Shown here: piece after piece, positions 5,531-29,899 of the stretch | How the letters are laid out: each line of letters starts with the position of its first letter | Position numbering within the stretch: position 1 is the stretch's first letter | NCBI GenBank assembly: GCA_025062235.1 | Contig: JANXAE010000016.1 | Span: 1-37,240, forward strand | Reading direction: 5' to 3' | DNA from: Bryobacteraceae bacterium | GTDB lineage: Bacteria > Acidobacteriota > Terriglobia > Bryobacterales > Bryobacteraceae | DNA length: 37,240 nucleotides | Notes under the pieces: model-generated | Told to the model about the DNA's origin: nothing | Database searches by the model: none | What the model saw: the letters and a program-made list of their open reading frames with translations, nothing else | Made by a program: the position numbers and the translations under genes

Positions 5531-7214
5531 CGGTTGCCACCTCGCCGGCGGTGCCGAGCGCTGCGTCCTGTCGCGGGTGGAACTCGATGATCACGGTCCG
5601 CGGGGCCTTTTGGGGTCCGCAAGTCAGCTCCAGCTTGCCGCCCCCGAGCACCACCACGCGCGAGGGATCGCGAACCGCGAGCCTGGTCTGCTTGCCGTCC
5701 GCCGTCTCGATCAAAAGACGCGCAACGCCGCGCAAGCAATCCACCTGCCGCAATTTCCCTTGCACGCGGCCCGGCGGCCTCTCGGTTTCAAACCAGGGCA
5801 CGACGTTGGCCGGCGGCGGACCCGCATCACGGTTGGCCCTGGCTTCAGCCTCGCGGATGCGCCGGAGCGCCTCTTCTTTCAGCCGCGCCAGCTCCCGCTC
5901 TTTTTCCTCCGCCTCGCGGCGGCGGGCCGCAGCTTCGGCTTCCAGGCGGCGCGCGTCGAGCGTGCGGCGGATCTCGCGGATCCTGGCCCGTTCGGCCTCC
6001 TCCAGGCTGGCTTGTTCGGCCGCCATCCAGGACCGTGCCGCGGCGCGATAGTCGCCCGCCTGCTCTTGCGCTTCGGCCAGGGTGCGCCACAGCCCGGCAT
6101 CGCGCGGTGCCAGTTTCGCGGCGGCCCCCAGCGCCTCCAGCCGGAGCCTCGGATCCGACAGGCGTTCGGCCAGCAAGCGGAGGGGTTCGGCCCAATTCGG
6201 GTTCAGCGCAGCGGCTTTGCGCAACATCGCCACGGCCTTCGTGGCGTCGGTTTCCGCGCGGGCCGCTTCGACCCAGACCCGTGCGTTGCTGCTGCCCTTG
6301 GCTATCGCCGTCTCCGAGTGCCGGCGAGCGGCGGCTGCGTCGCCCGCAGCCAGCGCGGTCAGGGCCAACCCCTCCCGAGCTTCGGCGGAGCCGTCATGGC
6401 GTGCGAGCACTGCTTCGTAGAGCCGGGCTGCCTCGGCAAGGCGCCCTTGCGCCAGTCTCAGATCGGCCAGCGCAATCTCCCCGGCAGGAGGATCCGCCGT
6501 TTCGACCCGGAAGTCGGTGCGAGGGTCGAGCACGCGTCCGGAGATCGTCTCCTCTGCCAAGCGGCCTTGAGCGAGCCACTGGCTGGCCTCCTCGCGCACC
6601 TGCTCGGGCCTCTTGCCCGTGGCGTTTCGCCATGCGGGTTCCGGGTCCAGGCCCTGCTGGAGGTTGTACAGCAATGGGCGCAGCTTGCCGCGATAATCCG
6701 GATGGAGACTCAGCATGTGCACCAGTCCCCAGCCGATCGTGGGGGAAGGGGGCGGCATGCCCAACCTTAGGCGGTTGCCCTCGATGCGGACCTGCGCGTA
6801 GAAATCGAGCAGGCCTTCCTCGAGATCCCGCGGCATGGGTCGGGTGTTGGCTTCGAGCAGGATGCGCGCCAAGACCCGCAACCATTGCGGCGTGGGATGA
6901 ACGTCTGCCTGGAGCGAGGCCACGAAACTGTCGCGGCCCAGCGCAGGCGGATACGCAGGTTCCGCGTCGCGGCCGCGGCGTACGAGGAGCACGCGCACGG
7001 GCCAGACCGTCCTGGGATCTTCCCGCGAGAGCTCCCGCCCGAAGATATAGCGGAACTGATCGAGGATGCCGAGAGTCTCCTGAGCTGCTCGCTCTCCCGC
7101 CCGGGAGAGGACCTCGAACGGGCCCGAACGCACCCGAGACCAGCGCTCCTGGGCAGAGAGCGGCGATAGAACCGCGAGCCAGAACAGCAGCCGGCGCACT
7201 TCCCCACACATCAT
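5517..7214 (-). CDS. Secreted TPR-repeat protein with coiled-coil and C-terminal domain
   Basis: 565 residues. A signal peptide is visible (RRLLFWLAVLSPLSAQ, likely cleaved near residue 22). Residues 23-200 (WSRVRSGPFEVLSRAG, later PRDLEEGLLDFYAQV) look like the catalytically inert peptidase-MA-like region that often precedes TPRs in acidobacterial proteins. Residues about 240-405 contain TPR-type helical pairs (LAQGRLAEAARLYEAVLARH and similar). Residues about 405-462 form a charged coiled coil rich in R, E and A. The last 95 residues are beta-rich (VVVLGGGKLELTCGPQ) and unrecognised. It heads the operon with the MFS transporter and the glycosyltransferase fusion. AGGCGG lies before the tandem ATGs at 7214 and 7211. 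No enzymatic motif was seen; a periplasmic scaffold role is only a guess. Confidence 0.8.
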   Translation of the reverse strand: MMCGEVRRLLFWLAVLSPLSAQERWSRVRSGPFEVLSRAGERAAQETLGILDQFRYIFGRELSREDPRTVWPVRVLLVRRGRDAEPAYPPALGRDSFVASLQADVHPTPQWLRVLARILLEANTRPMPRDLEEGLLDFYAQVRIEGNRLRLGMPPPSPTIGWGLVHMLSLHPDYRGKLRPLLYNLQQGLDPEPAWRNATGKRPEQVREEASQWLAQGRLAEETISGRVLDPRTDFRVETADPPAGEIALADLRLAQGRLAEAARLYEAVLARHDGSAEAREGLALTALAAGDAAAARRHSETAIAKGSSNARVWVEAARAETDATKAVAMLRKAAALNPNWAEPLRLLAERLSDPRLRLEALGAAAKLAPRDAGLWRTLAEAQEQAGDYRAAARSWMAAEQASLEEAERARIREIRRTLDARRLEAEAAARRREAEEKERELARLKEEALRRIREAEARANRDAGPPPANVVPWFETERPPGRVQGKLRQVDCLRGVARLLIETADGKQTRLAVRDPSRVVVLGGGKLELTCGPQKAPRTVIIEFHPRQDAALGTAGEVATVEYR

Positions 7215-7281
7215 ACCGCCTGCTCGAGCCCGGGGCGCGACGCGCTGGGACCGGGACGCATCGGGCCACAGGCCCGCGCCT

Positions 7282-7287
7282 TATACT
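7282..7287 (+). promoter_or_regulatory. -10 element TATACT giving a leaderless methyltransferase mRNA
   Basis: TATACT ends seven bases before the ATG at 7294, so the expected transcription start is the A of the start codon. No ribosome-binding site precedes the ATG (GGCGCT only). No good -35 is visible. Confidence 0.5.
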
Positions 7288-7293
7288 GGCGCT

Positions 7294-8268
7294 ATGGAAC
7301 CCGTCCCCGAGCATCTGCTGGAGCGCCTCAACGCCTTTCGCGAGAGCCGGCTGCTGCTGACCGCGATCGAGCTGGACGTGTTCACCGCCGTGGGCGAGGG
7401 CTCGACCGCCACCGAGACGGCGGCCCGGGTGGGTACGGCGCTGCGCTCCACGGAAATGCTGCTCGATGCCTTGGTGGCCGTCGGCCTCCTCGGCAAGCGC
7501 GAAGACCGGTATTTCAACGTCCCCGCTTCGCGCTGGTTCCGGCGCGACACTGCCGAAAGCGCCCGCGACGCCCTTATGCACATCGTCAAGCTGTGGGAGC
7601 GCTGGAGCCGGCTGACCGCATGCGTGCGCAAGGGAAGTTGCGTGCGGGCGCGCCGGCGCACGAAAGCCGAAACCGAGGCTTTCATCGCGCTGATGCACTA
7701 CAACGCCCGCTGGCGCGCGCCCCTGGTGGCCGAGGCCATCGGACTGGAAGGAGTCGGGCGCATGCTCGACCTGGGCGGCGGTTCCGGAGCCTACGCCATC
7801 GCCTTCGCGCAGGCAGCGCCCTCGCTCGAGGCCGACGTCATGGATTTGGCGCCCGTGCTGCGCATCGCGCGGCGGCACATCGAGCAGGCGGGCGTGGGCG
7901 ATCGCGTGAAGACCAAGGTGGGCGACCTGCGCCAGCCCTCCTACGGCGCCGGGTACGACCTGGTCTTCATCTCCGCGGTCTGTCACATGCTGGATCCGCA
8001 GGAGAACCGGGCCATGCTACGAAAATCGCACGCCGCCTTGCACCCCGGGGGCCGCGTCGTCATCCAGGATTTCATTCTCGAGCCCGATCGCACGGCTCCG
8101 CGCCACGCGGCGCTGTTCGCGTTGAACATGCTGGTGAACACGCCGGGCGGGGCGACGTACACGGAGACCGAGTACCGACAGTGGCTGGAGGAAGCCGGAT
8201 TCTACCCAGTGCGCCGGTTGCACGTGCCGGGGCCAACAGGCCTGATGGTGGGTTGGCGGCTGATCTGA
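7294..8268 (+). CDS. SAM-dependent O-methyltransferase (acetylserotonin O-methyltransferase-like)
   Basis: 324 residues. The N-terminal third is the dimerisation/winged-helix domain of the plant-COMT-like class (LLLTAIELDVFTAVGEG, then RVGTALRSTEMLLDALVAVG). The Rossmann domain begins at about residue 157 with SAM motif I LDLGGGSG; acidic motif II follows (ADVMDLAPV), then VVIQDFILEPD. ISAVCHMLDPQ occupies the place where the catalytic histidine normally sits. This class methylates hydroxyl groups of small aromatic or polyketide-like molecules, but the substrate cannot be inferred. It stands alone: divergent from the TPR gene and separated from the ABC ATPase by 76 bases with two hairpins. 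Start chosen by the -10 geometry. Confidence 0.88.
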   Translation: MEPVPEHLLERLNAFRESRLLLTAIELDVFTAVGEGSTATETAARVGTALRSTEMLLDALVAVGLLGKREDRYFNVPASRWFRRDTAESARDALMHIVKLWERWSRLTACVRKGSCVRARRRTKAETEAFIALMHYNARWRAPLVAEAIGLEGVGRMLDLGGGSGAYAIAFAQAAPSLEADVMDLAPVLRIARRHIEQAGVGDRVKTKVGDLRQPSYGAGYDLVFISAVCHMLDPQENRAMLRKSHAALHPGGRVVIQDFILEPDRTAPRHAALFALNMLVNTPGGATYTETEYRQWLEEAGFYPVRRLHVPGPTGLMVGWRLI

Positions 8269-16755: not shown

Positions 16756-16888
16756 ATAAGGGTAAAGTTGGCGTCGCGCTAGCACGAGCCATTCCCCGCG
16801 GGATCCGGAAAATGGGGCGCTGGTGCGCCCTTCCCGCACGCGCCTCATGCGCTCCGCGCGCGTGACTATTCGTGAAGGAGAAGCAAGC

Positions 16889-18346
16889 ATGGAACCCAAA
16901 GGCGACATCGCACTGATCGGCCTGGCGGTGATGGGCCAGAACCTCATTCTCAACATGAACGACCACGGCTACACGGTCGTGGCGTACAATCGGACCGTTT
17001 CCAAGGTGGACGAATTCTTGAACGGCGCGGCCAAGGGCCGCGACACCATCCTGGGGGCCCGCTCGATCGAGGAAATGGTCAGCCTGCTGAAGAAGCCCCG
17101 CAAGATCATGCTCATGGTGAAAGCGGGCAAGGCGGTGGACGATTTCATCGAGCTGCTGTTGCCCCATCTGGAGCCGGGCGACCTCATCATTGACGGCGGG
17201 AACTCGCATTTCCCCGACACCATTCGCCGCACCCACTACCTGCGCAGCAAGGGCCTGCTGTACATCGGTACGGGCGTTTCCGGCGGCGAGGAAGGCGCCC
17301 GTCACGGCCCCTCGATCATGCCCGGCGGGACGCCCGAGGCCTGGCCGCTGGTGAAGGACATCTTCCAGGCCATTGCGGCGAAGGCGCCCGACGGTGCCCC
17401 CTGCTGTGAGTGGATCGGCAGCGACGGCGCCGGCCACTACGTCAAGATGGCGCACAACGGCATCGAGTACGGGGACATGCAACTGATCTCGGAGGCTTAC
17501 CAGTTGATGAAGGAGGGCCTCGGCATGTCGAACGAAGAGATGCATGAGGCCTTCGCGGAGTGGAACCGGGGCGAGCTTTCGAGCTACCTGATCGAGATCA
17601 CGCGCGACATCCTCGCTTACAAGGACGAGAACGGCGAGTACGTGGTGGACAAAATCCTGGACGCCGCCGGCCAGAAGGGCACCGGGAAGTGGACCACGAT
17701 CAGCTCGCTCGATCTGGGCGTGCCGGTGACGCTCATCGCCGAGGCGGTCTTCGCACGGTGCCTCAGCGCCATGAAGGAGCAGAGGGTGGAAGCCGCGAAG
17801 ATCCTCAAGGGCCCGAAGGGCCGCCTGGAGGGCGACCGCGCCACCTGGATCGAGGACATCCGTCGCGCGCTACTGGCCTCCAAGATCGTCTCCTACGCGC
17901 AGGGGTTCATGCTGATGCGCGAGGCGGCGAAGGAGTACAACTGGGAGCTCAACTACGGCAGCATCGCCTCGATCTGGCGCGCCGGCTGCATCATCCGTTC
18001 GGTGTTCCTGGGCCGGATCAAGGAGGCTTTCGACCGCAATCCTGGCCTGAGCAACCTGCTGCTCGACGAGTACTTCCGCGGCGTGATCGAGCGCTGCCAA
18101 GACTCCTGGCGCCGCGTCGTTTCCTCGGCCGTGCAGATCGGCGTGCCCGTGCCCGCCTTCTCGACGGCGCTGGCCTTCTTCGACGGCTACCGCTGCGAAC
18201 GCCTGCCCGCCAACCTGCTCCAGGCACAGCGCGACTACTTTGGTGCGCACATGTACGAACGCGTGGACCGGCCGCGCGGCGAGTTCTTCCACACCAACTG
18301 GACGGGCCGCGGCGGCACGGTGGCCTCCACGGCTTATACCGTCTGA
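16889..18346 (+). CDS. gnd: 6-phosphogluconate dehydrogenase (NADP-dependent, decarboxylating)
   Basis: 485 residues. The Rossmann nucleotide site is IALIGLAVMGQNLILNM, followed by VVAYNRT; NRT is the usual NADP-preferring context. LIIDGGNSHFPDT, GVSGGEEGARHGPSIMPGG and GAGHYVKMAHNGIEYGDMQ are the substrate and catalytic motifs with the expected lysine, histidine and asparagine. GTGKWT and SYAQGFMLM lie in the helical C-domain, and the tail FHTNWTGRGG is conserved. Length matches the long (dimeric) form. AAGGAGAAG precedes the ATG. The enzyme makes ribulose-5-phosphate, CO2 and NADPH. It is the first gene of a four-gene operon: 21 bases to the sugar kinase, followed by overlapping or near-touching genes. 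Confidence 0.97.
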   Translation: MEPKGDIALIGLAVMGQNLILNMNDHGYTVVAYNRTVSKVDEFLNGAAKGRDTILGARSIEEMVSLLKKPRKIMLMVKAGKAVDDFIELLLPHLEPGDLIIDGGNSHFPDTIRRTHYLRSKGLLYIGTGVSGGEEGARHGPSIMPGGTPEAWPLVKDIFQAIAAKAPDGAPCCEWIGSDGAGHYVKMAHNGIEYGDMQLISEAYQLMKEGLGMSNEEMHEAFAEWNRGELSSYLIEITRDILAYKDENGEYVVDKILDAAGQKGTGKWTTISSLDLGVPVTLIAEAVFARCLSAMKEQRVEAAKILKGPKGRLEGDRATWIEDIRRALLASKIVSYAQGFMLMREAAKEYNWELNYGSIASIWRAGCIIRSVFLGRIKEAFDRNPGLSNLLLDEYFRGVIERCQDSWRRVVSSAVQIGVPVPAFSTALAFFDGYRCERLPANLLQAQRDYFGAHMYERVDRPRGEFFHTNWTGRGGTVASTAYTV

Positions 18347-18367
18347 GAAAGGAGGTCGGCAACCGGA

Positions 18368-19450
18368 ATGGACATCGGGCTGCACATTCCCAAGGAAGGG
18401 GCTTTCGACTTGGTTTCCCTGGGCGCGCTGGTGCACCGGCTGGATCCCGGCACCGTGCCCTTCCGCAAGGCCACGCGCTGCGACATCCACGTCTCGGGCG
18501 GCGAATACAACGTGGCGGCCAACCTTGCGGACTGCTTCGGAATGCGCACGGCGATCGTCACCGCCATGGTGGACTACCCCATCGGCGAGCTGATCGCCGA
18601 ACGCGTGCGCGCCATGGGCGTGAAGGGCATCTACAAGCACTTCAAGCACAATGGCGTCAACGGCCCGAACATGGCCACCGTGTACAGCGACCGCGGCTTC
18701 GGCGTGCGGCCGCCGGTGGTTTTCTACAACCGCTCGAACGAAGCCGCGGCCCTGCTCAAGCCGGGCGATTTCGACTGGAGAGAGATTTTCTCGGGCGGCG
18801 TGCGCTGGTTCCATTCGGGCGGCATTTTCGCGTCGCTTTCGGCCACCACGGGCGAGCTGATCGTGGAAGGCATGAAGGCGGCCAAGGCTGCCGGCGCCGT
18901 GGTCTCCTTCGACCTGAATTATCGGGCCAAGCTGTGGAGCGTGTGGGGCGGCCAGCAGAAGGCGCAGGAAGTGCTCGGCCGCATCGTCGAGAACGTTGAC
19001 GTGCTGGTGGGCAACGAGGAGGACCTCCAGCTCGGCCTGGGCATTCCCGGTCCTGAGGTCACGGCGGCCTCGCAGCTCGATCCCAAGGTCTTCCTGGCCA
19101 TGATCGAGACCGTCGTGCAGCGCTACCCGAACGTCAAGGTGGTGGCGACCACGCTGCGCGAGGTGCACTCCAGCAACCGTCACAGCTGGAGCGCCGTGGC
19201 GTGGATCAACGGCAAGTCCTACCAGGCGCCCACCTGCGAGCTGGATGTGTACGACCGGGTGGGCGGCGGCGATGGCTTCGCCTCGGGCCTGTTCTACGGC
19301 TTGCTGGCGGGCGAGCCTCCGGAGGAAGCTGTCAGGCTGGGCTGGGCGCACGGCGCCTTGCTGACCACGTTCCCGGGCGACACGACCATGGCCACGCTGG
19401 AGCAGGTGCGCGCGTTCGCGCGCGGCGGCTCGGCGCGGATCCAACGCTGA
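18368..19450 (+). CDS. PfkB-family sugar kinase, 2-dehydro-3-deoxygluconokinase-like
   Basis: 360 residues, longer than most KdgK proteins (about 310). The ribokinase-type motif near the N-terminus is HVSGGEYNVAANLADCFG. YDRVGGGDGFASGLFYG near the C-terminus has the anion hole and catalytic base at Asp302. VSFDLNYRAKLW is the SFDxNxRxxLW motif seen in KDG kinases. An insertion of about 40 residues (KHFKHNGVNGPNMATVYSD and following) sits in the substrate-lid region. KDG kinase makes KDPG for Entner-Doudoroff-type breakdown of sugar acids. AAAGGAGG lies 12 bases before the ATG. Its TGA shares one base with the ATG of the phosphatase gene. Confidence 0.85.
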   Translation: MDIGLHIPKEGAFDLVSLGALVHRLDPGTVPFRKATRCDIHVSGGEYNVAANLADCFGMRTAIVTAMVDYPIGELIAERVRAMGVKGIYKHFKHNGVNGPNMATVYSDRGFGVRPPVVFYNRSNEAAALLKPGDFDWREIFSGGVRWFHSGGIFASLSATTGELIVEGMKAAKAAGAVVSFDLNYRAKLWSVWGGQQKAQEVLGRIVENVDVLVGNEEDLQLGLGIPGPEVTAASQLDPKVFLAMIETVVQRYPNVKVVATTLREVHSSNRHSWSAVAWINGKSYQAPTCELDVYDRVGGGDGFASGLFYGLLAGEPPEEAVRLGWAHGALLTTFPGDTTMATLEQVRAFARGGSARIQR

Positions 19451-20007
19451 TGCAGGCAAGCTACCCCGGATCCGTTTTCGAGCGGGCCGCGCGCGTCCGC
19501 CTGCTCTTGATGGACGTGGACGGCGTGCTGACCGACGGCAAGCTGTACAACGTCCCGGATGCCAGCGGCCGCATGGTGGAAACCAAGGGTTTCGATTCGC
19601 AGGACGGCATCGCCCTCCAGTGGCTTTCCTGGAAAGGCATACGCACCGGGCTGATCAGCGGGCGCGTCTCCCCGGCCACCGAGGAGCGCGCCCGCCAGTG
19701 CCGCTTCAGTTATGTCTACCAGGGCCACATCGAGAAGATTCCCATCCTGGAAGAGATCTTGCGCGACGCGGGCGTCGCCCCGGAAGAGGTGGCTTACATC
19801 GGCGACGATCTGACGGACGCCGTCATCATGCGGCGGGTGGGGCTGGCCATCGCCACAGCCAACGCGCGGCCCGAGGTGAAGCGCATGGCTCACTGGGTCA
19901 CGGAGTCGCCGGGGGGACGGGGTGCGGTGCGCGAAGTGGCCGAGCTACTGTTGAAGGCGCACGGTTACTGGGAGGAGATCCTGCGCAAGTACGAGGTGCT
20001 GGAGTGA
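19450..20007 (+). CDS. KdsC-like HAD-family phosphatase
   Basis: 185 residues, the usual length for KdsC. LLLMDVDGVLTDGKLY carries the nucleophile Asp22 and acid-base Asp24. ISGR is HAD motif II (serine), KIPILEEIL supplies the motif III lysine, and YIGDDLTDAVIMRRVGLAIA is motif IV. The absence of a large cap and the DGVLTDG signature place it with 3-deoxy-D-manno-octulosonate-8-phosphate phosphatases. The neighbours are not Kdo-pathway genes but gnd and a KDG-kinase-like gene, so a related 2-keto-3-deoxy sugar phosphate is also a possible substrate. ATG overlaps the kinase stop (TGATG). Confidence 0.85.
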   Translation: MQASYPGSVFERAARVRLLLMDVDGVLTDGKLYNVPDASGRMVETKGFDSQDGIALQWLSWKGIRTGLISGRVSPATEERARQCRFSYVYQGHIEKIPILEEILRDAGVAPEEVAYIGDDLTDAVIMRRVGLAIATANARPEVKRMAHWVTESPGGRGAVREVAELLLKAHGYWEEILRKYEVLE

Positions 20008-20017
20008 GGAGGCCGTC

Positions 20018-20677
20018 ATGGCCGGCGAACGTGTGGGCCTGCTGATCGAGGGACCCGGCGGTCCCGGGGTACTCCACCAGCTCACGGGCGTAATCGCGCG
20101 GCACGAGGGCGACATCTCGCTGGTCGAGATCCTCGAGAATGCGCCGGAGCGTTCGCGCATTTATTTCGAGGTCGAGCTGCCGGGCCTGCCCGACGCGCTC
20201 GTCGGAGAACTGCAAGGCCTGCCGATCGTACGCTCGGTCACTCTGACGGAAACTTTCCAGAAGATCTACGGCAAGCGCGTCATCATCATGGGCGGCGGCG
20301 CTCAGGTCGGACAGGTCGCCATCGGCGCCATCTCGGAAGCCGACCGTCACAACATCCGCGGCGAGCACATCTCGGTGGACACCATCCCGCTGGTGGGCGA
20401 GCAGGCGCTGGCGGCTGCGGTCCGGGCGGTGGCGCGATTGCCGCGGGCCAAGGCCTTGGTGCTGGCGGGTTCGCTCATGGGCGGCGAGATCGAAAGGGCC
20501 GTGCGCGAGGTCCGTCAACAGGGCCTGCTCGTGATCAGCCTGAACATGGCGGGCAGCGTGCCGGAAGCTGCCGATTTCGTCGTGACCGATCCCGTCCAAG
20601 CCGGGGTGATGGCGGTGATGGCCGTAGCGGACACGGCGAAGTTCGATCCTGCACGTCTGAAGCGCAGGGTGTTCTGA
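20018..20677 (+). CDS. ACT-domain protein (DUF5612-like)
   Basis: 219 residues. Residues 4-75 (RVGLLIEGPGGPGVLHQLTG, then DISLVEILE) form an ACT ligand-binding fold. The remaining part begins KRVIIMGGGAQVGQVAIGAIS and continues SVDTIPLVGEQALAAAVRAV, ALVLAGSLMGGEIERAV and LLVISLNMAGSVPEAADFVV. This second domain resembles the DUF5612 proteins I know mainly from methanogens; its function is unknown. GGGAQVGQ is glycine-rich but not a classical dinucleotide fold. GAGGAGG lies five bases before the ATG, and the gene is ten bases after the HAD phosphatase, so it is co-expressed with gnd, the kinase and the phosphatase. A role in sensing a small molecule and tuning the pathway is a guess. Confidence 0.75.
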   Translation: MAGERVGLLIEGPGGPGVLHQLTGVIARHEGDISLVEILENAPERSRIYFEVELPGLPDALVGELQGLPIVRSVTLTETFQKIYGKRVIIMGGGAQVGQVAIGAISEADRHNIRGEHISVDTIPLVGEQALAAAVRAVARLPRAKALVLAGSLMGGEIERAVREVRQQGLLVISLNMAGSVPEAADFVVTDPVQAGVMAVMAVADTAKFDPARLKRRVF

Positions 20678-20843: not shown

Positions 20844-23693
20844 TCAGCGGTTGCGCCGCCAGCCGAGCAGTTCGCGCTTGCGGGTCAAGTCGCCATCGGG
20901 CACGACAACGACGACCCACGGCGCCGCGGGATCCTTCGGCTTGCCTTCCCAGCTGAGAGTCTGGGTTCGTCCCGCTTCGAGCCGAAGGGTCCGTTCCGTG
21001 GGCGCCAGTTCCAGGTTGGAAGTGCGGAGCGAGATCGTGTGGCGCCCGGACCCCTCCGCTGTCACCTCGAGGTGGACGAGGCCTCGGGCGTTCACGCTCG
21101 CGGAGGGCTTCAACTCGATCCAGTCCTCGGATCGCAGATCCAGGTGGAACATCCCGCCCGGAAGCAGCGTGACCTTGCGCGCGGTGCCGCCGCGCGAGAC
21201 GGCGTATTCGCCGGCCGGCAGCGCCCCTCGGAAGACGGAGCTGCCGGCCTCGGGCCACAGAAGAGTGACGGATGCGGTTTCGAGATGCTGGAACGTTACC
21301 GGCTCCGCCGTTCCCTGGGTCACGCGGCCCGAGACGAAAGCCGGGCCGGCCAGGTCGCGCATCAGCCAGATCCAGCGCGTGACCGGATGGACCCAGACCT
21401 CTTTCCAGTTGTGACAGTTCTCGGTGGGCCAGTAAGGCAAGTCCGTGTTGCCGCGCGTCTGGATCCCGACGGGCAGCGAGCCCACGATGTCGCCGGACAT
21501 GGCCGTGTACTGCGGGGCGTAATCGTAGCCTTCTCCCCACATGGTGCTTTGCGCGAAAGGATTGCGGCCCACCACCCATTGGAGCTGAAGGTGGGCCAGC
21601 GCAGCCAGTTCGAAATTCGAGCGCAGGTGAGCCGCAGCCGAGAGCGCCTTGGCTTGCGTGAGCACAGTGCCGTGGTTGCCGCGGAACTCGAACCAGACAG
21701 GAAAGAGTCGGACGTAGTGCCGCGCGCCGACCTTGATGCCATTGAGGACCTGTTCCCGGTAGGCCTCGGCAGTGGCGCCTTTGCCTTTTCCCGCTTGTTT
21801 GTATTCCTCGTCGTGGTAAATGGAGTTGGCCAGCATAGCGTAAGGTTCGGACATCCGTGACATGGCTTTGTGAAAGTACTCCGAGTAAATGGCGACGGCC
21901 GAGTACCATTCCATCCATTGGGGATGCTCGGGCAGAAGCTCACAGAGGCGGACCAGGGCGACGACCGGCGCTGTCTCTCGGCTGATGTGATCGTAACGGA
22001 GGATACGTTTCTTCTCCGGGCCGGTGTAAAAGAAGCCGGTCAGGGGTTCGGTGAGTTCGGGCAGGAAACTGCGTTGCTGTGAATCGAGGATGATCCGCGC
22101 GTACGCCGTCGCCCTTTCGGCATAGTTCCATTCGCCGGTGGCCTGATACAGTTCCAGAGCCGCCAGGACCGCCATGCCTGCGATTTCGGCAGGCGCTCCC
22201 CGGGTTGGCTTTTCGAAGCCTGCAACTGCGAAGTTCCAGTCCTCGATCGCCTGTTTCAGGCTGTGCGCGGACCGGATGGGATCGGAAGGTTTCAGGATGC
22301 GGGCAGCCAGGGCTTCGGCGGCGGCGGCCGAGAAGTTGCCGGCCGGGCTATTGACCGCCTGGCAAACCATGTCGTCGAGGTCGCCGATGATCCCGTTCGT
22401 CCAGCGGTCCATCGTGCAGAAGCCCGGCCGGTAACCGTCGTGGAAGGTAACCTTGAGGAGCCAGTCCAGGCCCCAATTTGCTTCCTGGACGAGGCGGTCT
22501 TCGAGCTCGGGGTCTTCCCCGGTCGCTCGCAGCCGTTCCGCCAGGGCGAACATCGCGTAGACGGCCTCGGCAGTGTTGATCAGGGACTGGGAGAGGTCCC
22601 CGGCGTCGTGCCATCCGCCGTTCGCGACGATGCGCTTGTCGCCGTGCACGAGCAGCCAGTCGCGGTGGCAGACATCGTGCACTCCCGGAACCGCGTAGCC
22701 GCAACGTTCCACGAAGAAGAAATTGATGGCCTTCCAGAGGCTGCTTTTCCAGACGTCGGCTCCGATGCGGAACGGGCGGCTGGTGCGTTCGCCGGCGCGC
22801 AGCACATACGTGCCCGGGGCCTCAACTTCGGAGAAATCCAGGAGCTGGAATTCGCCCAACCGCGTTCGCAATCGTTGCACGGGCTTGCTGGCGGCAGGCA
22901 GTCCGGAACTCACGTTGACCAGTTCGAAGGAATCCGCCGTCAGGTCGCTCGCCAGTGCGGTCTTCGCGAAACCGATCTGGTAGCCGCTGTGACTGAAGGC
23001 GAACTGCCCGGGGGCGACGTTCCAGCCGAGGTAGTGGTCTTCGTTGACCCTTTCCAGCTCGAGCCTGTCTATGAAGAACCTCACCGTCTCGCTCGCACCC
23101 GGTTCGTTGCCTTGCATGCGGTAAGAGAATTCCAGGCCGGTGACCCTGTCGCGCGGCAGGTTCGCGATCTCCCAGACCACGCGATTCCATCGGTGATTCT
23201 GAAGGATGACGTAGTTGAGTCCCATCTTGCCGTAGGCGTCCGGCACGGGCTCAGCGCCCTGGTTATGGAAGATCATGAGCAGGGAGACGACGCGGAAGCC
23301 TGGCAGATCGGGATAGATCCATACCGAGATGCGGTTCCAGCGGCTCCAGTCTTCGCCTTCGACCACGTGCAGTGCGCCGGCCGCCCCGTAGTACCGCGTC
23401 GTGGGAATGGGCTTGTCTCCGGTCGTGGGGCTGGTCAACAGCAGCGAGCTCGAGCCGCTGAGGGCCTTTTCCCTGGACAGGAGGAGCTGACCGCGGGCCT
23501 GTCCCGAGTTGACCAGCTTCCAGCTGGCGAGGCTCTCGGCGTCGTCGAGCAGCGTCGAAGCCAGCACGGGCTTGCTCAGCCAGCGCGTCTTGATGGAGTT
23601 CGTGTAGTCGTTGGGCATGGGGAAGCGGGGCGGCGGATCCCCGACGAGGACACCCAGGAGGAAAGCCGTCAGCCAGCGGATCATCTTCAGCAT
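20844..23693 (-). CDS. Glycoside hydrolase family 9 protein
   Basis: 949 residues, with a hydrophobic N-terminus (MIRWLTAFLLGVLVG) that acts as signal or anchor. Residues 45-225 look like a beta-sandwich carbohydrate-binding or jelly-roll region (WSRWNRISVWIYPDLPG, FFIDRLELE). Residues 235-330 are the cellulase N-terminal Ig-like domain (SGYQIGFAKTALAS, LDFSEVEAPGTYVLRAGE). The (alpha/alpha)6 domain follows, with NGGWHDAGDLSQ carrying Asp363 and Asp366 of the GH9 base motif. Near its end WVVGRNPFAQSTMWGEGYDY matches the conserved VxGxNP region, and KEVWVHP probably holds the acid Glu. The last 140 residues are beta-rich. GH9 enzymes are mostly endo- or exoglucanases, but exo-glucosaminidases also occur. 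GGGAG fits the second ATG (23684) better than the first. It follows the Oar-like gene by 89 bases. Confidence 0.88.
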   Translation of the reverse strand: MLKMIRWLTAFLLGVLVGDPPPRFPMPNDYTNSIKTRWLSKPVLASTLLDDAESLASWKLVNSGQARGQLLLSREKALSGSSSLLLTSPTTGDKPIPTTRYYGAAGALHVVEGEDWSRWNRISVWIYPDLPGFRVVSLLMIFHNQGAEPVPDAYGKMGLNYVILQNHRWNRVVWEIANLPRDRVTGLEFSYRMQGNEPGASETVRFFIDRLELERVNEDHYLGWNVAPGQFAFSHSGYQIGFAKTALASDLTADSFELVNVSSGLPAASKPVQRLRTRLGEFQLLDFSEVEAPGTYVLRAGERTSRPFRIGADVWKSSLWKAINFFFVERCGYAVPGVHDVCHRDWLLVHGDKRIVANGGWHDAGDLSQSLINTAEAVYAMFALAERLRATGEDPELEDRLVQEANWGLDWLLKVTFHDGYRPGFCTMDRWTNGIIGDLDDMVCQAVNSPAGNFSAAAAEALAARILKPSDPIRSAHSLKQAIEDWNFAVAGFEKPTRGAPAEIAGMAVLAALELYQATGEWNYAERATAYARIILDSQQRSFLPELTEPLTGFFYTGPEKKRILRYDHISRETAPVVALVRLCELLPEHPQWMEWYSAVAIYSEYFHKAMSRMSEPYAMLANSIYHDEEYKQAGKGKGATAEAYREQVLNGIKVGARHYVRLFPVWFEFRGNHGTVLTQAKALSAAAHLRSNFELAALAHLQLQWVVGRNPFAQSTMWGEGYDYAPQYTAMSGDIVGSLPVGIQTRGNTDLPYWPTENCHNWKEVWVHPVTRWIWLMRDLAGPAFVSGRVTQGTAEPVTFQHLETASVTLLWPEAGSSVFRGALPAGEYAVSRGGTARKVTLLPGGMFHLDLRSEDWIELKPSASVNARGLVHLEVTAEGSGRHTISLRTSNLELAPTERTLRLEAGRTQTLSWEGKPKDPAAPWVVVVVPDGDLTRKRELLGWRRNR

Positions 23694-23732
23694 CTCCCGG
23701 AACGTCGGACCGCTGTGCGGAGAGAGGCTGGC

Positions 23733-23756
23733 GGGGCGGAGCCCGACCTCCGCCCC
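23733..23756 (-). promoter_or_regulatory. Stable hairpin between the receptor and GH9 genes
   Basis: GGGGCGGAG (23733-23741) and CTCCGCCCC (23748-23756) form a perfect nine-pair stem with a six-base loop. It sits in the 89-base gap between the receptor stop and the GH9 start and has no T-run after it on either strand. It could terminate part of the transcripts or protect the upstream mRNA, so that receptor and hydrolase are made in different amounts. Confidence 0.55.
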
Positions 23757-23782
23757 ATCTCAGCGGTCGCGTGCCATGTCGC

Positions 23783-26700
23783 TCACCACTCCAGCCGGGC
23801 GCCCAGTTGCCCGGTTCTCCTGCCGCTGGCGTTGAAGATGTTGCCGAAATACGCCACGTTCATATTGGTGCTGGGCGAGCCGAAGTAATGCCGGTTGAAG
23901 AGGTTGAACATCTCCAGCCGGAACATGATCCTCGCCCGTTCGCGGATGGAGAAGTACTTGACCAGGGAGGCGTCCTCGCTGAAAGTGGAAAGCATGCGTA
24001 CCTGCGGGAAGCGGACCGGGCTGTTGCCCAGCGACTGAGGAGCCGCGTCAGAGAAGGCGGCCGGGTCGAAGAACCGGTTGCCCGGGTCCGCGGCGTTCCA
24101 TGGGTTGAAAGTCTCCGGGTTGAAGACGCGTCGGAACCCGCCCGGCGGCGAGACGAAGTTGGCGTGGATGGCGCCGCCGTTCCAGAAGTTGGGCGTAACC
24201 CGGGAGACCGGCCGCGTTAGCGGCGTACCGGTGGAGTAATTGAGCAGGGCTGACAGGCTCCAACCGCCGACGATCGCGTTGAGGATGCGGCCGGCATTGG
24301 GCAGCAGGGAACGGTTCCTGCCCAGGGGCAGGTCCCATTGCATCACCGCTTTCAGCACGTGAGTTCTGTCGGCCGCCGCTACCGCCTTGTACAGACGCCG
24401 GTTGTAAGTGTCCTGGACAGGGCCGCCGCTTCCCCCGTTGGCGACGTTCGTAGTGTCGGTGATGTTCTTGGAGAAGGTGTAGGCGCCGTAGAGGTAATAG
24501 CCCTGGGTCATTCGCTTGGTGAGGATGAGGTTCAGCGAATGGTAGGTGCTGTTGCCTACCGGATCGCCGAAAGCCGACAGGCTGCGGCTGGTAAGTTGGG
24601 GGAAGGGCAACAGGGTGTAAGCGCCCAGCCCGCTGAAGCCGGGGTAAGGATAGGGCAGGCCCGCGGCGGCCGCCTGCGCCGGAGTGCTGATGGTCTGCGT
24701 CAGCACCGCTCCGCGCGCCAGTTCTCTGGGATGGATCTGGTTGGGGTATACGATGCCTCCGGCATGCAGCCGTGTGCCCTTGCTGCCGCGCCACTCCAGA
24801 TCCACCCGGAGGTCGCGCAGAACTTCGGTCTGGAAACCGAAGTTGAAGTTCTGGACCTGTCCGGACTTGGCGAATTCCGGATGATACCGGCGGCCGCCGA
24901 ACTTGGCTGCGAAGGAAGGATCGGTGCTGGGAGGCCTCCTGACGTCCAGGGGGAAGCCATCGTCAATGTTGAAGACCGGGCGGAAAACACCCTTGCTGTC
25001 CGCCGCTGCCTCGTACGTCTCATTGAAGCCGGCCCGCCATGGGTAAGTCCAGCCGAACCCCTCCGGCGTATAGCTGATGCCGTAGCCGGCGCGCATGACG
25101 ATTCTGCGCGTGATCTGGTAGGCGATGCCGCCGACCGGTCCCCAGTCGCTCCAGCTGCCGGGAAACATGGTGCGGCGGCCGGCCCGTCCTTCGCCGGCGC
25201 CCATGTACTCGACGGCGCCACGCAGGCCGCCGAAGTTCGGATCGGGCAGGTTCTCGTTGAAGTTCGCCAGCTCATCCCGGGCTTCGTAATAGTTGGAGTT
25301 GCCGCTCCAGCGCAGCCCCAGCGTCAGTGTGACCCTGCGGGTGATTTTCCAGTTGTCCTGGATGAAAAGCGCGGCGTAGTAGCTGCTGGTGATGGGGTTG
25401 AAGATCGGCCCGAGCGTGGCGCTGTTGACTTCGCCGAGCAGGAAGCTGGCGAAGCTGTTGCCGATGCGGGACGTGAAGGTCTCGCCGGGAATGGCCGTGG
25501 TGCGAGCAGCGAAGTTGAACGTCCCTCCGGTGTTGTTGAACTGCTGGGAGTCGTAGCGGAACAGGTTGATTTCGCCGCCGAGCTTGATGGTATGCGTCCC
25601 CTTGTACCAACTGAGCGAATCCGAAAGGACCAGGTTGCGGTAGAACTCGTCGCGGTTGGCGTCATGGTTCCAACTCTGGAAGGTAACCACCGGCGAGCTG
25701 CCGAGATTGATCACCGGCCGGGTAACCTGGTCGTCAGGGGCGCCCAGGCCGACGTTCTTGATGCCCCACTTGTCCGCGAAGTGCTTCCCGATCTGGCGGC
25801 TGCGGAATGCGTTGGCGTTGTTGTTCAAACCGACCGAGGCGTGGTTGAGCAGGCTCGGGCTCAGGACCCAATCGTGCGAGACGTTCCAGTTATATCCCCG
25901 GCGGTGCTGCCGGATCGAGCGGGAAAGCGGTCCGCCCAGATCCGGATCGAGCAGGGACCAGACTTCGCTCACGTTCTCCTGGAAGTTCCGCGGAAAGCTG
26001 TGCTTGTAATAGTAGGCGGAGATCTTGTGAGCGCTCGAAAAGGTGTGATCCACTTTGAGCGAGTAGTTGCGCGCGTCCATGCGGTACTGGTTGGATGTGA
26101 AACTGTTGTTGGTGAGGTTGGAGTTCACCGGCATGTACCATTTCTTGAACTCTTCGGCGAAGGCCCGGGCGACTTTGGAAATTCGCGAGGGGGGAATGAT
26201 GTTGCCGTAGAACGGGTCAGCAACGTAGCGGCCGCCAACCAGACGCCACGTGGTGGGGTCGTAGATCATGCCTTCGAAGACGTCGCGGCCGAGGGCGTCG
26301 GTGCCCACCCGCGTAGGACGGAGCAACGCGCTCAGGTTGCCTTCCCACATCTCCGGCTGCGGCACGCTGCGAGTCAGGGAACCGGGGCCCAGCGTTCGGG
26401 TGAAGAAACGCTCGGCGGTGAAGTAAAAGAAGGTCCGGTTGCGGCCGTCATAGAGGTTCGGCAGGTGGACCGGGCCGCCGAGACTGCCGGCGTAGTTCTT
26501 CTGCCGGTCCATGGGGCGGCGGAAGGTGCTGTTGGAAGGATCCCGCGCAAGGTAGAGGTTGTTGTTCCAGTCGTTGGCGTGAAGGAACTCGTTGCGCAGG
26601 GTGTAGAAGGCGGAGCCGTGCAGCTGATTGGTCCCGGACTTGAGCGTGAAACTCAGAGTGCCCCCGCTCTGCCGGCCGTGTTCCGCGCTGGGCGTCCCGG

Positions 26701-27367
26701 TGATGACGGTCAGTTCCTGGACAGCTTCCGCCGAGATGCTGGCTTCGGCGAAGTCGCCGGGCAGGAATCCGGCAAGGTTCGTCATTCCGTCCACCACGAT
26801 TCCGGCGCTGGCCCCTGGCGTGCCTTGAATGGACATGGTGTAATCGGAGCCTCGCACGCCCGGCACGAGACGGGCCGCGAAGTCCGCCATGTTCCGCCCG
26901 CGGCTGCCGAAGGCCAGAGGCAAGGTAGCGAAGATCTGCGAGGTCACGCTTTCGGTGCTCTGGGCGGTTTCGGTTTGTAGCAGGGGCGCTTCCGCGGTCA
27001 CCGTGAGTTGCTCGACGAGTTGCCCTACTTCCAGTACGGGGTCAATGCGCGCGATCTGCGCGGTCGCAAGGCTGATCCCTCGACGCACGAGGGTCTTGAA
27101 GCCCGCCGCCGAATAGGTCACGGTGTACTCGCCCACGGGCAGCGCGCTCAGGGTGTAGGCTCCGACTTCGTTGCTGACGGTCTGGTAGTCCACGCCGGTG
27201 GCCACGTGCCTGGCTTTGACCGTGACCGCGGGGATGACGGCCCCGGTGCTATCGGTGACGATGCCGGTGATGGATGCCCTGCCGACCTGGGCGAGCGAGC
27301 TCTGTTGCGCGCCCACCAGAATCAGGAGGCAGAGAACGATCGGTGGGGGAATTCGAATTGCTCCCAT
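23783..27367 (-). CDS. Oar-like TonB-dependent outer-membrane receptor
   Basis: 1194 residues. A signal peptide (PPIVLCLLILVGAQQSSLAQ) ends near residue 27. Residues 28-115 are a carboxypeptidase-regulatory-like Ig fold (ASITGIVTDSTGAVIPAVTV, GAYTLSALPVGEYTVTYSA). A plug domain covers about 120-235 (GIVVDGMTNL, AVQELTVITGTPSAEHGRQS). The remainder is rich in beta strands and aromatic residues (GSAFYTLRNEFLHANDWNNN, RTFFYFTAERF, LFIQDNWKITRRVTLTLGLR) and closes with GARLEW, an aromatic end expected for outer-membrane barrels. These proteins are abundant in Acidobacteria and thought to take up large substrates. The genes downstream (GH9) and divergent (winged-helix/PD40) suggest polysaccharide use. 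ATG choice follows the signal peptide; only a weak AGG precedes it. Confidence 0.92.
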   Translation of the reverse strand: MGAIRIPPPIVLCLLILVGAQQSSLAQVGRASITGIVTDSTGAVIPAVTVKARHVATGVDYQTVSNEVGAYTLSALPVGEYTVTYSAAGFKTLVRRGISLATAQIARIDPVLEVGQLVEQLTVTAEAPLLQTETAQSTESVTSQIFATLPLAFGSRGRNMADFAARLVPGVRGSDYTMSIQGTPGASAGIVVDGMTNLAGFLPGDFAEASISAEAVQELTVITGTPSAEHGRQSGGTLSFTLKSGTNQLHGSAFYTLRNEFLHANDWNNNLYLARDPSNSTFRRPMDRQKNYAGSLGGPVHLPNLYDGRNRTFFYFTAERFFTRTLGPGSLTRSVPQPEMWEGNLSALLRPTRVGTDALGRDVFEGMIYDPTTWRLVGGRYVADPFYGNIIPPSRISKVARAFAEEFKKWYMPVNSNLTNNSFTSNQYRMDARNYSLKVDHTFSSAHKISAYYYKHSFPRNFQENVSEVWSLLDPDLGGPLSRSIRQHRRGYNWNVSHDWVLSPSLLNHASVGLNNNANAFRSRQIGKHFADKWGIKNVGLGAPDDQVTRPVINLGSSPVVTFQSWNHDANRDEFYRNLVLSDSLSWYKGTHTIKLGGEINLFRYDSQQFNNTGGTFNFAARTTAIPGETFTSRIGNSFASFLLGEVNSATLGPIFNPITSSYYAALFIQDNWKITRRVTLTLGLRWSGNSNYYEARDELANFNENLPDPNFGGLRGAVEYMGAGEGRAGRRTMFPGSWSDWGPVGGIAYQITRRIVMRAGYGISYTPEGFGWTYPWRAGFNETYEAAADSKGVFRPVFNIDDGFPLDVRRPPSTDPSFAAKFGGRRYHPEFAKSGQVQNFNFGFQTEVLRDLRVDLEWRGSKGTRLHAGGIVYPNQIHPRELARGAVLTQTISTPAQAAAAGLPYPYPGFSGLGAYTLLPFPQLTSRSLSAFGDPVGNSTYHSLNLILTKRMTQGYYLYGAYTFSKNITDTTNVANGGSGGPVQDTYNRRLYKAVAAADRTHVLKAVMQWDLPLGRNRSLLPNAGRILNAIVGGWSLSALLNYSTGTPLTRPVSRVTPNFWNGGAIHANFVSPPGGFRRVFNPETFNPWNAADPGNRFFDPAAFSDAAPQSLGNSPVRFPQVRMLSTFSEDASLVKYFSIRERARIMFRLEMFNLFNRHYFGSPSTNMNVAYFGNIFNASGRRTGQLGARLEW

Positions 27368-27466
27368 GGTTGCAACCTCGAAAGCCTTGCCTGGTCGGGC
27401 GGCTGGTCGAGCGGGGGCCGTTCCGACGAGCAGACAGCCACCCCCTCCCACACGCGCCTTGGGCCC

Positions 27467-27495
27467 AGTATCGGTGTTGCTGGCCCCCGCTTCAA
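27467..27495 (-). promoter_or_regulatory. Sigma70-type promoter of the receptor-GH9 operon
   Basis: On the minus strand TTGAAG (27495-27490) and GATACT (27472-27467) are separated by exactly 17 bases. The start is predicted near 27460, giving a leader of about 93 bases before the ATG at 27367. The inverted repeat at 27500-27534 lies just upstream of the -35. Confidence 0.55.
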
Positions 27496-27499
27496 CCCA

Positions 27500-27534
27500 G
27501 TTACCGCAACAGGCAGGCCTGCTGTAACCGTAAC
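27500..27534. promoter_or_regulatory. 35-bp imperfect inverted repeat, candidate operator
   Basis: The left arm GTTACCGCAACAGGCAG (27500-27516) and the right arm CTGCTGTAACCGTAAC (27519-27534) are complementary except for three mismatches and one extra base, with a two-base spacer. It lies between the divergent receptor and winged-helix/PD40 genes, at about -40 to -74 relative to the predicted receptor start, a position typical of an activator site. The binding protein is unknown. Confidence 0.55.
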
Positions 27535-27670
27535 ATGGGCCGTGAGCCGGTCCTCCCCGATCCCGCCCGAACCCTTCCCACAGCCACCTTGCCGGTCGCC
27601 GCCTTGATCGAACCCAGCGAAAAGACGACGGATGCCGGTCGCCGCACGGGGAGGAGCATGGCGGTTGAGC

Positions 27671-27676
27671 TAAAAT
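27671..27676 (+). promoter_or_regulatory. -10-like TAAAAT for the winged-helix/PD40 gene
   Basis: TAAAAT predicts a start near 27683, about 15 bases before the ATG at 27698. AAGGGGGCC in between can serve as the ribosome-binding site. The -35 is poor. Confidence 0.45.
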
Positions 27677-27697
27677 AGCCGCGACGAAGGGGGCCTG

Positions 27698-29899
27698 ATG
27701 CAGCCGGTGGCTGGAAAGCTGGGCGACGCCGGCGATCCGGGCGGTGCAGCCGCCGTGCTCGCCCACTTGGAGACGATCCTTCGCAGCCGGACATTTTCGG
27801 GAGCATGGAGGCAGCAGCGCCTGCTGCGGTTCCTGGTGGACAAGTACGTGCAGGGGCTGGCGGGTGAGCTGAAGGAGTACTCCCTGGGCGTGGAGGTCTT
27901 CGACAAAGGAGAGGCGTTCGATCCGCGCTTGGACCCGATCGTCAGGGTGGAGGTCGGCCGCTTGCGGGCGCGCTTGGAAAAATACTACGAAACCGAGGGC
28001 CGCAAGGAGCAGATCAGGATCTCGCTGCCGAAGGGGAGTTACGTGCCGCGCATCGTGCGGTGCGTGGATGGAGGGACGGCGGAGGCCACGCCGCCGACGC
28101 AGTATCCCGCAAAGGTGGACGGTTCGCGGGCTTTCCGCGGACCCAAATGGTGGATTTGGGCTGCCGCCGCGGCATTGGCCGCCTTGGGGTGGGCGGCGTT
28201 CAGGCTCGCCAGCAGCGCAGGCGGCCAGCGTTCCCCTGCCGCGTACGAGTTCTCGAGGCTGACCCGCGAGGCGGGGCGATGCAGCTTTCCGAGCGTGGGT
28301 CCGGACGGGCGCCGCTGGCTCTACGCATGCCTCGAGCGAGGCCAGTGGGATTTGTTCGCGAGGTCTGCTGGGACGGAGCTGGGCGTCAACCTCACCGCGG
28401 ATTGTGCGGCCGACGATTGGCAGCCCGCGATTTCGCCCGACGGCTCCCAAGTCGTGTTTCGCAGCGAGCGGGATGGCGGCGGAATATTCCTGATGCCCAG
28501 CGCGGGAGGCCCGGTCAGGAAGCTGGCAAGCTTCGGTTACCACCCCTGCTGGGCGCCGGACGGGCGGCATGTGGTCTTCTCCTCGGGGACGTTTTTCGAA
28601 CCCGAGGACGGGCCGGCGCGCCGGGCTAGCGAGCTTTTCACGGCCGACGCGAAGACAGGGGAGCTGAGAAGGATCACGTCGGCGGCCGTGGTCTACGACG
28701 CTGTTCAGCCGAGCTGGTCTCCTCACGGGCACCGTATCGCCTTCTGGGCCTCCAGTCCCGACGGGCGGAGAGACATTTGGACGATCCCCGCTCCCGGTTC
28801 GGCGACCCGCGAGGCGGTGGCCACGCCCGTCACACAAGATGCGTGGGTTGACTGGAGCCCCCATTGGTCGCCCGATGGACGTTTTCTTTACTTCACGAGC
28901 GACCGCGACGGCAGCATGAACATCTGGCAGGTGCCCATTGACGAGCAGACCGGCCGTGTGTTGGGTTCGGCGACTCCCCTGCGCACGCCGTCGGCTTACA
29001 GCACGCACTTCTCGATGGCCCGGGATGGCCGGAGTTTCGTTTACACCCGGCGCAGCATATCGAGCATCCTTTACGTCGCACCCTTCCGGCCATTCCAGGC
29101 GGTGGACGCCTCCGTCGCCAAGCCCCTGACAGGCCGTGGGCGACAAGTGCGCGAGCCGGAGTTCTCCCCCGATGGCGCCTGGCTTGCTGCGCGCGTTCAG
29201 GACCCCGAGGAGGACATCGTGATCCTGCGGCCTGACGGGAGCCAGCTGCGCCGCCTGACGAACGACAGGGCCAAGGACCGCAATGCGCGCTGGTCGCCGG
29301 CAGGCGATTATCTGGTGTTTCTGAGCGACCGTGGGGGGCGATTCGAGTACTGGGCCGTCAACCCCGACGGCAGCGGGCTGCGCCGCGTGGCCCCCTCGAT
29401 GGCTCTGGTGTGGGATTCGGCGAAAAATCTGGTCGGCTTTCCGGCGGGCTCCGAGCCGCTTTGCGTGCTGGCCTTCTCGCGTCCCTGCCCGGCGGTGTCT
29501 CTGCCAGCGGATTTCGCACCCATCAGCTTCGCGCCGGACGGCAGGCTGGTTGCGGGACGGCTCCGCTCGGCGCCGGCTCCCAGGGAGCAGCTCTATGTGC
29601 TTTCGCTGGCCGACGGTACCTTGCACAAGATCGCCGAACATGGCTGGTCGCCGGTCTGGTTGAAGGACAGCCAGAACTTGCTGTTCTGGGAGACCAACGC
29701 CATCTGGGCGATTCGTGCCGACGGACGCAACAGGAGGATGGTCCTCGGGTTGCCCGGGCAGATCTTGCAACAGCGCTTTGCGCTGAGTCCTGACCAGCAG
29801 TTCATCTACTTCGTGCGGACAGAGATCGAAGAAGATATTTGGCTGGCTCGCGAGCACGGTACGGGCCAAACGGGGAACATGCTCGGTCAGTTGCGCTGA
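27698..29899 (+). CDS. Membrane protein with winged-helix-like N-domain and PD40 (TolB-like) propeller
   Basis: 733 residues. Residues 17-120 are the domain often found at the N-terminus of adenylate-cyclase-like and TPR proteins, with RLLRFLVDKYVQG, KEYSLGVEVFDKGEAFDP and DPIVRVEVGRLRARLEKYY, ending PKGSYVPRI; it is generally treated as a winged-helix-like, possibly DNA-binding, module. One membrane helix follows at 151-170 (WWIWAAAAALAALGWAAFRL). The rest is a beta propeller of PD40/WD40-like repeats, each with a SPDG-type turn (WAPDGRHVVFSS, WSPHWSPDGRFLYFTSDRDG, FSPDGAWLAARV), as in TolB. The layout suggests a cytoplasmic N-domain and a periplasmic propeller. It is divergent from the Oar-like receptor. 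Signal sensing and gene control are inferred from architecture, not shown. Confidence 0.85.
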   Translation: MQPVAGKLGDAGDPGGAAAVLAHLETILRSRTFSGAWRQQRLLRFLVDKYVQGLAGELKEYSLGVEVFDKGEAFDPRLDPIVRVEVGRLRARLEKYYETEGRKEQIRISLPKGSYVPRIVRCVDGGTAEATPPTQYPAKVDGSRAFRGPKWWIWAAAAALAALGWAAFRLASSAGGQRSPAAYEFSRLTREAGRCSFPSVGPDGRRWLYACLERGQWDLFARSAGTELGVNLTADCAADDWQPAISPDGSQVVFRSERDGGGIFLMPSAGGPVRKLASFGYHPCWAPDGRHVVFSSGTFFEPEDGPARRASELFTADAKTGELRRITSAAVVYDAVQPSWSPHGHRIAFWASSPDGRRDIWTIPAPGSATREAVATPVTQDAWVDWSPHWSPDGRFLYFTSDRDGSMNIWQVPIDEQTGRVLGSATPLRTPSAYSTHFSMARDGRSFVYTRRSISSILYVAPFRPFQAVDASVAKPLTGRGRQVREPEFSPDGAWLAARVQDPEEDIVILRPDGSQLRRLTNDRAKDRNARWSPAGDYLVFLSDRGGRFEYWAVNPDGSGLRRVAPSMALVWDSAKNLVGFPAGSEPLCVLAFSRPCPAVSLPADFAPISFAPDGRLVAGRLRSAPAPREQLYVLSLADGTLHKIAEHGWSPVWLKDSQNLLFWETNAIWAIRADGRNRRMVLGLPGQILQQRFALSPDQQFIYFVRTEIEEDIWLAREHGTGQTGNMLGQLR

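Follow-up and report, generated by a model that had tools for sequence, protein, structure and literature searches.

A receptor–hydrolase operon that is probably under the control of a divergently encoded transmembrane one-component regulator, sensing a periplasmic ligand, was identified in the window, the 37,240-nucleotide stretch of DNA analyzed here (contig C77 of a 3.2-Mb acidobacterial bin, G000, 81% complete, the nearest named kin of which belong to the Bryobacteraceae). The genes for an Oar-like receptor and a GH9-family enzyme are co-oriented with an 89-bp gap between them, and the regulator gene diverges from the receptor gene across an intergenic gap of 330 bp (Table 1). The first-pass annotation had placed three genes here, and all three proved to be real and correctly located. 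Its reading of receptor and hydrolase as one probable operon agrees with their co-orientation and spacing, while control of that operon by the regulator is suggested by gene position and operator-like repeats.

In the proposed mechanism, the GH9 enzyme would be exported and, either in the periplasm or outside the cell, would cut a glycan that is β-glucan-like or related, and the TonB-dependent receptor would import glycan fragments. The propeller of the regulator would sense a periplasmic ligand or partner, and the signal, passed through one membrane helix, would alter the binding of an OmpR/CadC-type winged helix at the doubled site in the shared intergenic region. This change in binding would set transcription of the receptor–GH9 operon and probably also of the regulator's own gene. 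We infer the control relation and its direction, the DNA binding, the ligand, and the substrate; by analogy with CadC and ToxR, activation is more likely than repression.

Table 1. Positions of the genes, protein regions, and candidate operator in the window
Feature	Position	Strand	Basis
GH9-family glycoside hydrolase, predicted secreted, 949 aa	20844..23693	-	PF00759
Oar-like TonB-dependent outer-membrane receptor	23783..27367	-	PF13620, PF25183
Candidate operator, two GTWDCSGYWACA copies 24 bp apart	27500..27535	.	divergent intergenic region
Membrane-bound one-component regulator (predicted), 733 aa	27698..29899	+	N-domain, helix, PD40 propeller
N-terminal OmpR/CadC-type winged-helix domain (modeled), aa 13-122	27734..28063	+	AF2 model, VIA-align
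Single predicted membrane helix, aa 153-171	28154..28210	+	hydropathy
PD40/TolB-like beta-propeller sensor region, periplasmic-type	28223..29896	+	PF07676, TIGR02800

Domain Architecture of the Locus

The hydrolase matches the GH9 model PF00759 at 1.5e-25 (90.8 bits against a curated cutoff of 27.7), which places it in family GH9. The domain search also returned a weak match to a CelD_N-like Ig domain, and two extensions, an N-terminal jelly-roll-like region and a C-terminal β region, were recognized by eye. Its PDB relatives are GH9 endoglucanases. With GH9 cellulases and relatives (PDB 3x17, 3h7l, 5dgq) the enzyme shares the catalytic fold and the DAGD motif, but the similarity is low, and the presumed acid Glu lies in KEVW, where the usual motif is NEV..DYNA. 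Alignment of 22–23 orthologues showed that D363 and D366 (HDAGD) and E765 (KEVW), the last assigned as the acid residue only by its alignment position, are invariant. The window enzyme and its orthologues may constitute a separate GH9 subfamily that keeps HDAGD and carries KEVW.

The receptor displays CarboxypepD_reg (PF13620, 1.3e-18) and OMP_b-brl_4 barrel (PF25183, 2.3e-157) domains, and its Plug match of 23.6 bits falls slightly below the cutoff of 23.9; we judge this domain content to be that of an Oar-like receptor (CarboxypepD_reg plus OMP_b-brl_4). The domain order and family are likewise those of Oar-like receptors, the difference being that the window receptor is linked with a GH9 enzyme and with a divergent regulator of its own. 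Its start is probably the ATG at 27367, with a signal peptide. A mechanically called ORF of 2028 residues (23783–29869), which runs over the regulator gene, has a spurious 5′ end.

The N-terminal domain of the regulator (N-domain, first 120 residues) matches no Pfam or NCBIfam model, and nothing useful was found in a PDB sequence search with an N-domain profile. An AF2 model built from 56 sequences (pLDDT 90.6) predicts the order helix–helix–recognition helix–wing. Foldseek itself gave no match at E ≤ 0.001; when its candidates were re-aligned with VIA-align, the DNA-binding domains of PrrA, SaeR, PhoB, and CadC came out on top (Z 6–8), and 11 of the 12 or more top-ranked structures were OmpR-family domains, with CadC at rank 12. 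Because the Z scores are middling, Foldseek gave no significant match, and sequence searches gave none, the winged-helix fold is supported, not proven. The model and the OmpR/PhoB/SaeR/CadC type of the best-aligned structures are consistent with the “winged-helix-like” domain of the first-pass annotation. The single membrane helix that it had proposed between the DNA-binding and sensor domains is weakly predicted for the window protein itself, with a best Kyte–Doolittle value of 1.58 over aa 153–171, and clearly predicted for relatives, most of which reach a hydropathy of 1.6–3.1. A helix is predicted in nearly all sensor-bearing relatives.

The C-terminal region matches PD40 (PF07676, 1.1e-25) and, under its equivalog cutoff, TolB (TIGR02800, 9.1e-50), in agreement with a propeller of periplasmic type, the topology being predicted. 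PD40 propellers often bind proteins. With TolB as the best named relative, albeit below the cutoff, the regulator might instead be a TolB-like, protein-binding sensor of envelope state or stress, and the locus would then answer envelope stress. We consider this quite unlikely in view of the heads found at sister loci, which are malectin or BcsB-like and thus carbohydrate-linked folds.

The sensing of a periplasmic ligand or partner is the reading that we follow. The commonest sensor head of the family, here called UNK (∼220–260 residues; for example, locus L148, 7424–8209, and some 80 other regulators), had no prior characterization. A model from 17 sequences (pLDDT 85) matched part of BcsB, a cellulose-synthase subunit, with Z 12.4 over 170 residues (rmsd 3.5); enzymes of families GH67, GH115, and GH84 matched through their N-terminal parts (Z 7–10), and the remaining matches lay at Z 5–6.5; such fold likeness alone shows no function, and the matched structures are carbohydrate-related.

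Pairing of the Regulator Family with Oar-like Receptors

Using an N-domain profile seeded with three receptor-adjacent genes, which introduces a mild bias, members were found in 13 of 119 genomes phylum-wide (E ≤ 1e-5), with 1–19 members in each Acidobacteriota genome having the domain. For 79 regulators fetched by N-domain match regardless of their neighbors (genes called with a simple in-house caller), the first upstream neighbor was an Oar-like receptor in divergent orientation 38 times, co-directionally 8 times, and convergently 3 times; addition of the window brings the divergent pairs to 39 of 80. Oar-like receptors number from 48 matches to >100 first-look candidates per genome, or roughly 1–2% of genes, so that even at an assumed background of 5% the figure of 38 of 79 corresponds to a binomial p of ∼2e-28, which is not a strict probability given that members of the regulator family are related.

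Sorted by sensor class, the 80 regulators comprise 59 UNK (BcsB-like), 6 malectin, 5 PD40, and 10 other proteins (TPR, AAA, or soluble), of which 30, 4, 4, and 1, respectively, are divergent to a receptor. A second, named set was obtained from a scan of genome contigs with a profile of 7 sequences; here, divergent receptors accompanied 12 of 29 malectin, 6 of 19 UNK (plus 6 co-directional), 1 of 9 PD40, and 1 of 21 other regulators. Of 19 PD40-type regulators chosen by likeness to the protein of the window, 4 had a receptor in divergent and 2 in co-directional orientation. The receptor pairing is real but looser for the PD40 class.

N-domain members from outside the Acidobacteriota (records named Lysobacter, Luteimonas, Paraburkholderia, Robbsia, and others) belong to the “other” class, and those scanned are TPR or NB-ARC/TPR proteins. 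More widely, TPR or NB-ARC/AAA-TPR proteins (L103, L160, L172, and others) carry the N-domain in both Acidobacteriota and Proteobacteria-named records, mostly without receptors nearby. The genome of the window itself holds a decayed divergent pair on contig C19 (locus L087), with receptor fragments at 3599–5993 on the reverse strand, an N-domain remnant at 7072–7386 on the forward strand, and several stops. This pair is a second, lost receptor/regulator unit.

Genes beside other N-domain-paired receptors encode Alpha-amylase, GH88, Pectate_lyase_2, GH5-like, and GH65-like proteins as well as non-glycan cargo: phosphatases (tyrosine phosphatase, metallophosphatase), phosphodiesterases, and FG-GAP proteins. 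Glycan sensing is consequently not general in the family; the general unit consists of regulator and receptor with variable cargo, and GH9 marks one substrate line. The pairing of this switch with receptors across the phylum, under three sensor heads, looks like a widespread and little-described means of sensing food outside the cell and switching on its uptake. Soils harbor Acidobacteriota in abundance, and each genome encodes dozens of Oar-like receptors, for few of which the substrate or the mode of control is known. Where a sensor-regulator is encoded beside a receptor, it offers a handle on what that receptor imports, and the malectin, BcsB-like, and PD40 heads are testable in vitro.

Conservation of the Operon and Probable Turnover of the Divergent Regulator

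Across 200 family genomes, an orthologue of the full-length GH9 enzyme (E < 1e-150) was present in 23 and an orthologue of the receptor (E < 1e-250) in at least 5, all 5 of which also have the GH9 enzyme (hypergeometric 1.3e-5); the receptor count is a lower bound because the search scored three candidates per genome. The first-pass annotation had proposed looking for the trio in other Acidobacteriota, and orthologous loci were indeed recovered from other genera, with co-occurrence beyond chance. Receptor orthologues 58–82% identical to that of the window stand beside a divergent N-domain regulator in four other genomes. Bryobacteraceae HOT.MAX.089 (G191) possesses a receptor (82%), a PD40 regulator (58% over its full length), and a GH9 enzyme (70%), split over contig ends. 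Tandem malectin regulators are found at two loci in G028 (receptor 78% and GH9 65% at G028a; 58% and 54% at G028b) and at one in G306 (74% and 64%), the latter also split over contig ends, while G336 (62% and 58%) has a BcsB/GH67N-like regulator. All of these regulators are divergent and belong to the same N-domain family as that of the window. In G300, receptor and GH9 genes are adjacent and no regulator was seen; in G203, a malectin regulator sits between GH9 and a different receptor; and distant GH9 orthologues (45–51%) often have no N-domain regulator nearby.

A conserved pectate-lyase-like/SMP-30 protein of 985 residues is encoded after GH9 in malectin-type loci (L023, 2156–5113; L256, 3658–6606) but not after the window GH9. 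The pectate-lyase/SGL proteins that follow GH9 in G028a and G306 are 77% identical to each other.

These loci bear on whether the regulator might govern the import of non-polysaccharide compounds, such as peptides, phosphorylated or sulfated compounds, or metal chelates, with GH9 as a passenger. The tyrosine phosphatase, phosphodiesterase/sulfatase, metallophosphatase, and FG-GAP genes beside other pairs would suit such a role, as would the sheer number of Oar-like receptors per genome (48 or more matches). We nevertheless hold it to be unlikely: GH9 follows the receptor at every orthologous locus of the window's receptor clade where the contig allows, and sister loci join malectin sensors to the conserved pectate-lyase-like third gene.

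Returning to the proposed regulator of a glycan-uptake operon, the orthologous receptor–GH9 loci carry all three regulator classes, so the regulator has seemingly been replaced whole while its place and orientation were kept. In an N-domain tree, which was built on few columns and from which deep order is not to be read, a branch with support 93 sets the malectin class apart, and the protein of the window clusters with that of G191 and one further PD40 type. An in-place swap of the sensor domain was set aside on this grouping, and whole-gene replacement appears to fit better. An operon that is conserved while its sensor is replaced would offer a clean natural experiment in how regulation is rewired.

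That regulator lineages supplant each other at one place could also mean that the receptor operon is not a target of the regulator at all, divergence then being incidental to shared promoters or to regulator-gene mobility. We regard this as very improbable, as replacement left both orientation and place intact and the shared region contains class-specific repeats that seldom occur in the 110 control divergent regions.

Operator-like Repeats and Relation to Known Systems

The repeats consistent with control by the divergent regulator are clearest in the malectin class. CGTTA occurs in all 15 shared intergenic regions of this class, CGTTAAC in 10 of 15 versus 1 of 110 control divergent intergenics (Fisher 1.8e-10 before correction and still near 1e-6 after correcting for ∼8,000 possible 7-mers, with a few of the regions sharing descent), and AGGCTAA in 9 of 15 versus 1 of 110. 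The density of GTTAC per kb is 5.3 in PD40, 3.4 in BcsB-like, and 5.5 in malectin regions, against 1.0 in control divergent intergenics.

A doubled site in the window, GTTACCGCAACA-N12-GTAACCGTAACA, corresponds to GTTGCGGCTACA-N12-GTATCGGTTACA in G191, with equal spacing and diverged sequence in the rest of the intergenic region. The sites agree at 18/24 positions and the spacer at 3/12; two of the differences, C to G and A to T, fall at the matching place in both copies. The best doubled-12-mer score was 37, and 300 paired shuffles reached 35 at most. When 237 family genomes were searched, the doubled pattern, which was derived from the window and G191 themselves and elsewhere stays at about background level, matched the window, the G191 locus, and one place in G331, and a reversed control also gave one match. 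The site, at 27500, came to light by eye and in the alignment with G191; a simple inverted-repeat search of the window intergenic region did not single it out. We interpret the repeats in the shared intergenic regions as operator-like and the doubled site as a candidate operator, to which the regulator would bind.

On balance, we lean toward a still broader picture: membrane one-component regulators of one family, spread across the phylum and characterized by an undescribed winged-helix subfamily, at least three exchangeable periplasmic sensor heads, and a GTTA-cored operator, would locally control part of the very large Oar-like repertoire. Whole regulators would be swapped at a conserved operon to change the inducer, and the family would fill the role that HTCS and ECF/anti-sigma systems have in Bacteroidetes.

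By prediction, the window regulator shares with ToxR/CadC-type TTRs (PMC10269533; CadC, PMC5430869) a one-component design with a cytoplasmic OmpR-type winged helix, a single membrane helix, and a periplasmic C-terminal sensor. It differs in an N-domain too divergent for Pfam/NCBIfam models, in the heads of its family (PD40, tandem malectin, or BcsB-like), and in the systematic divergent placement of that family beside Oar-like TonB receptors. A survey reported TTRs to be somewhat enriched in Acidobacteriae and did not name a receptor pairing, the words “TonB” and “propeller” being absent from its main text (PMC10269533); in the Solibacter genome paper, TonB receptors and winged-helix regulators appear solely as groups of paralogues (PMC3174227). 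Within the open-licence literature, no description of acidobacterial winged-helix regulators with malectin or of TonB-receptor-paired regulators was found.

The first-pass annotation had likened the logic of the locus to that of Bacteroidetes PULs and had suggested that it may be an undescribed acidobacterial counterpart. Such PULs likewise encode a TonB-dependent receptor together with a secreted glycoside hydrolase and a membrane sensor of their own; GH9 adjoins the receptor in the window, twice in G028, in G336 and G300, and, across contig ends, in G306 and G191. In place of SusC/SusD, the window has an OMP_b-brl_4/Oar-like receptor, and in place of an HTCS or ECF-sigma/anti-sigma pair, a predicted one-component winged-helix regulator. 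SusD_RagB (PF07980) is absent from the window's genome (81% complete) and from six relatives with the GH9 locus, and a Bacteroides control was positive. The locus operates in the manner of a PUL, its regulator being ToxR/CadC-like, and is not a Bacteroidetes PUL, as SusD was not found. The likeness in logic thus stands, through the conserved trio, the phylum-wide predicted sensor–receptor pairing, malectin, a head of carbohydrate-binding type, at sister loci, and the negative search for SusD; the trio as a unit fares less well, since GH9 is not its defining part, the sensor head varies, and some cargo is not polysaccharide-related.

Beyond the convergent end of the window GH9 gene, positions 16823–20677 include genes for a PfkB-type kinase like KDG kinases (18368–19450), a KdsC-like phosphatase (within ORF 19201–20007), and an ACT-DUF5612 protein (20018–20677).
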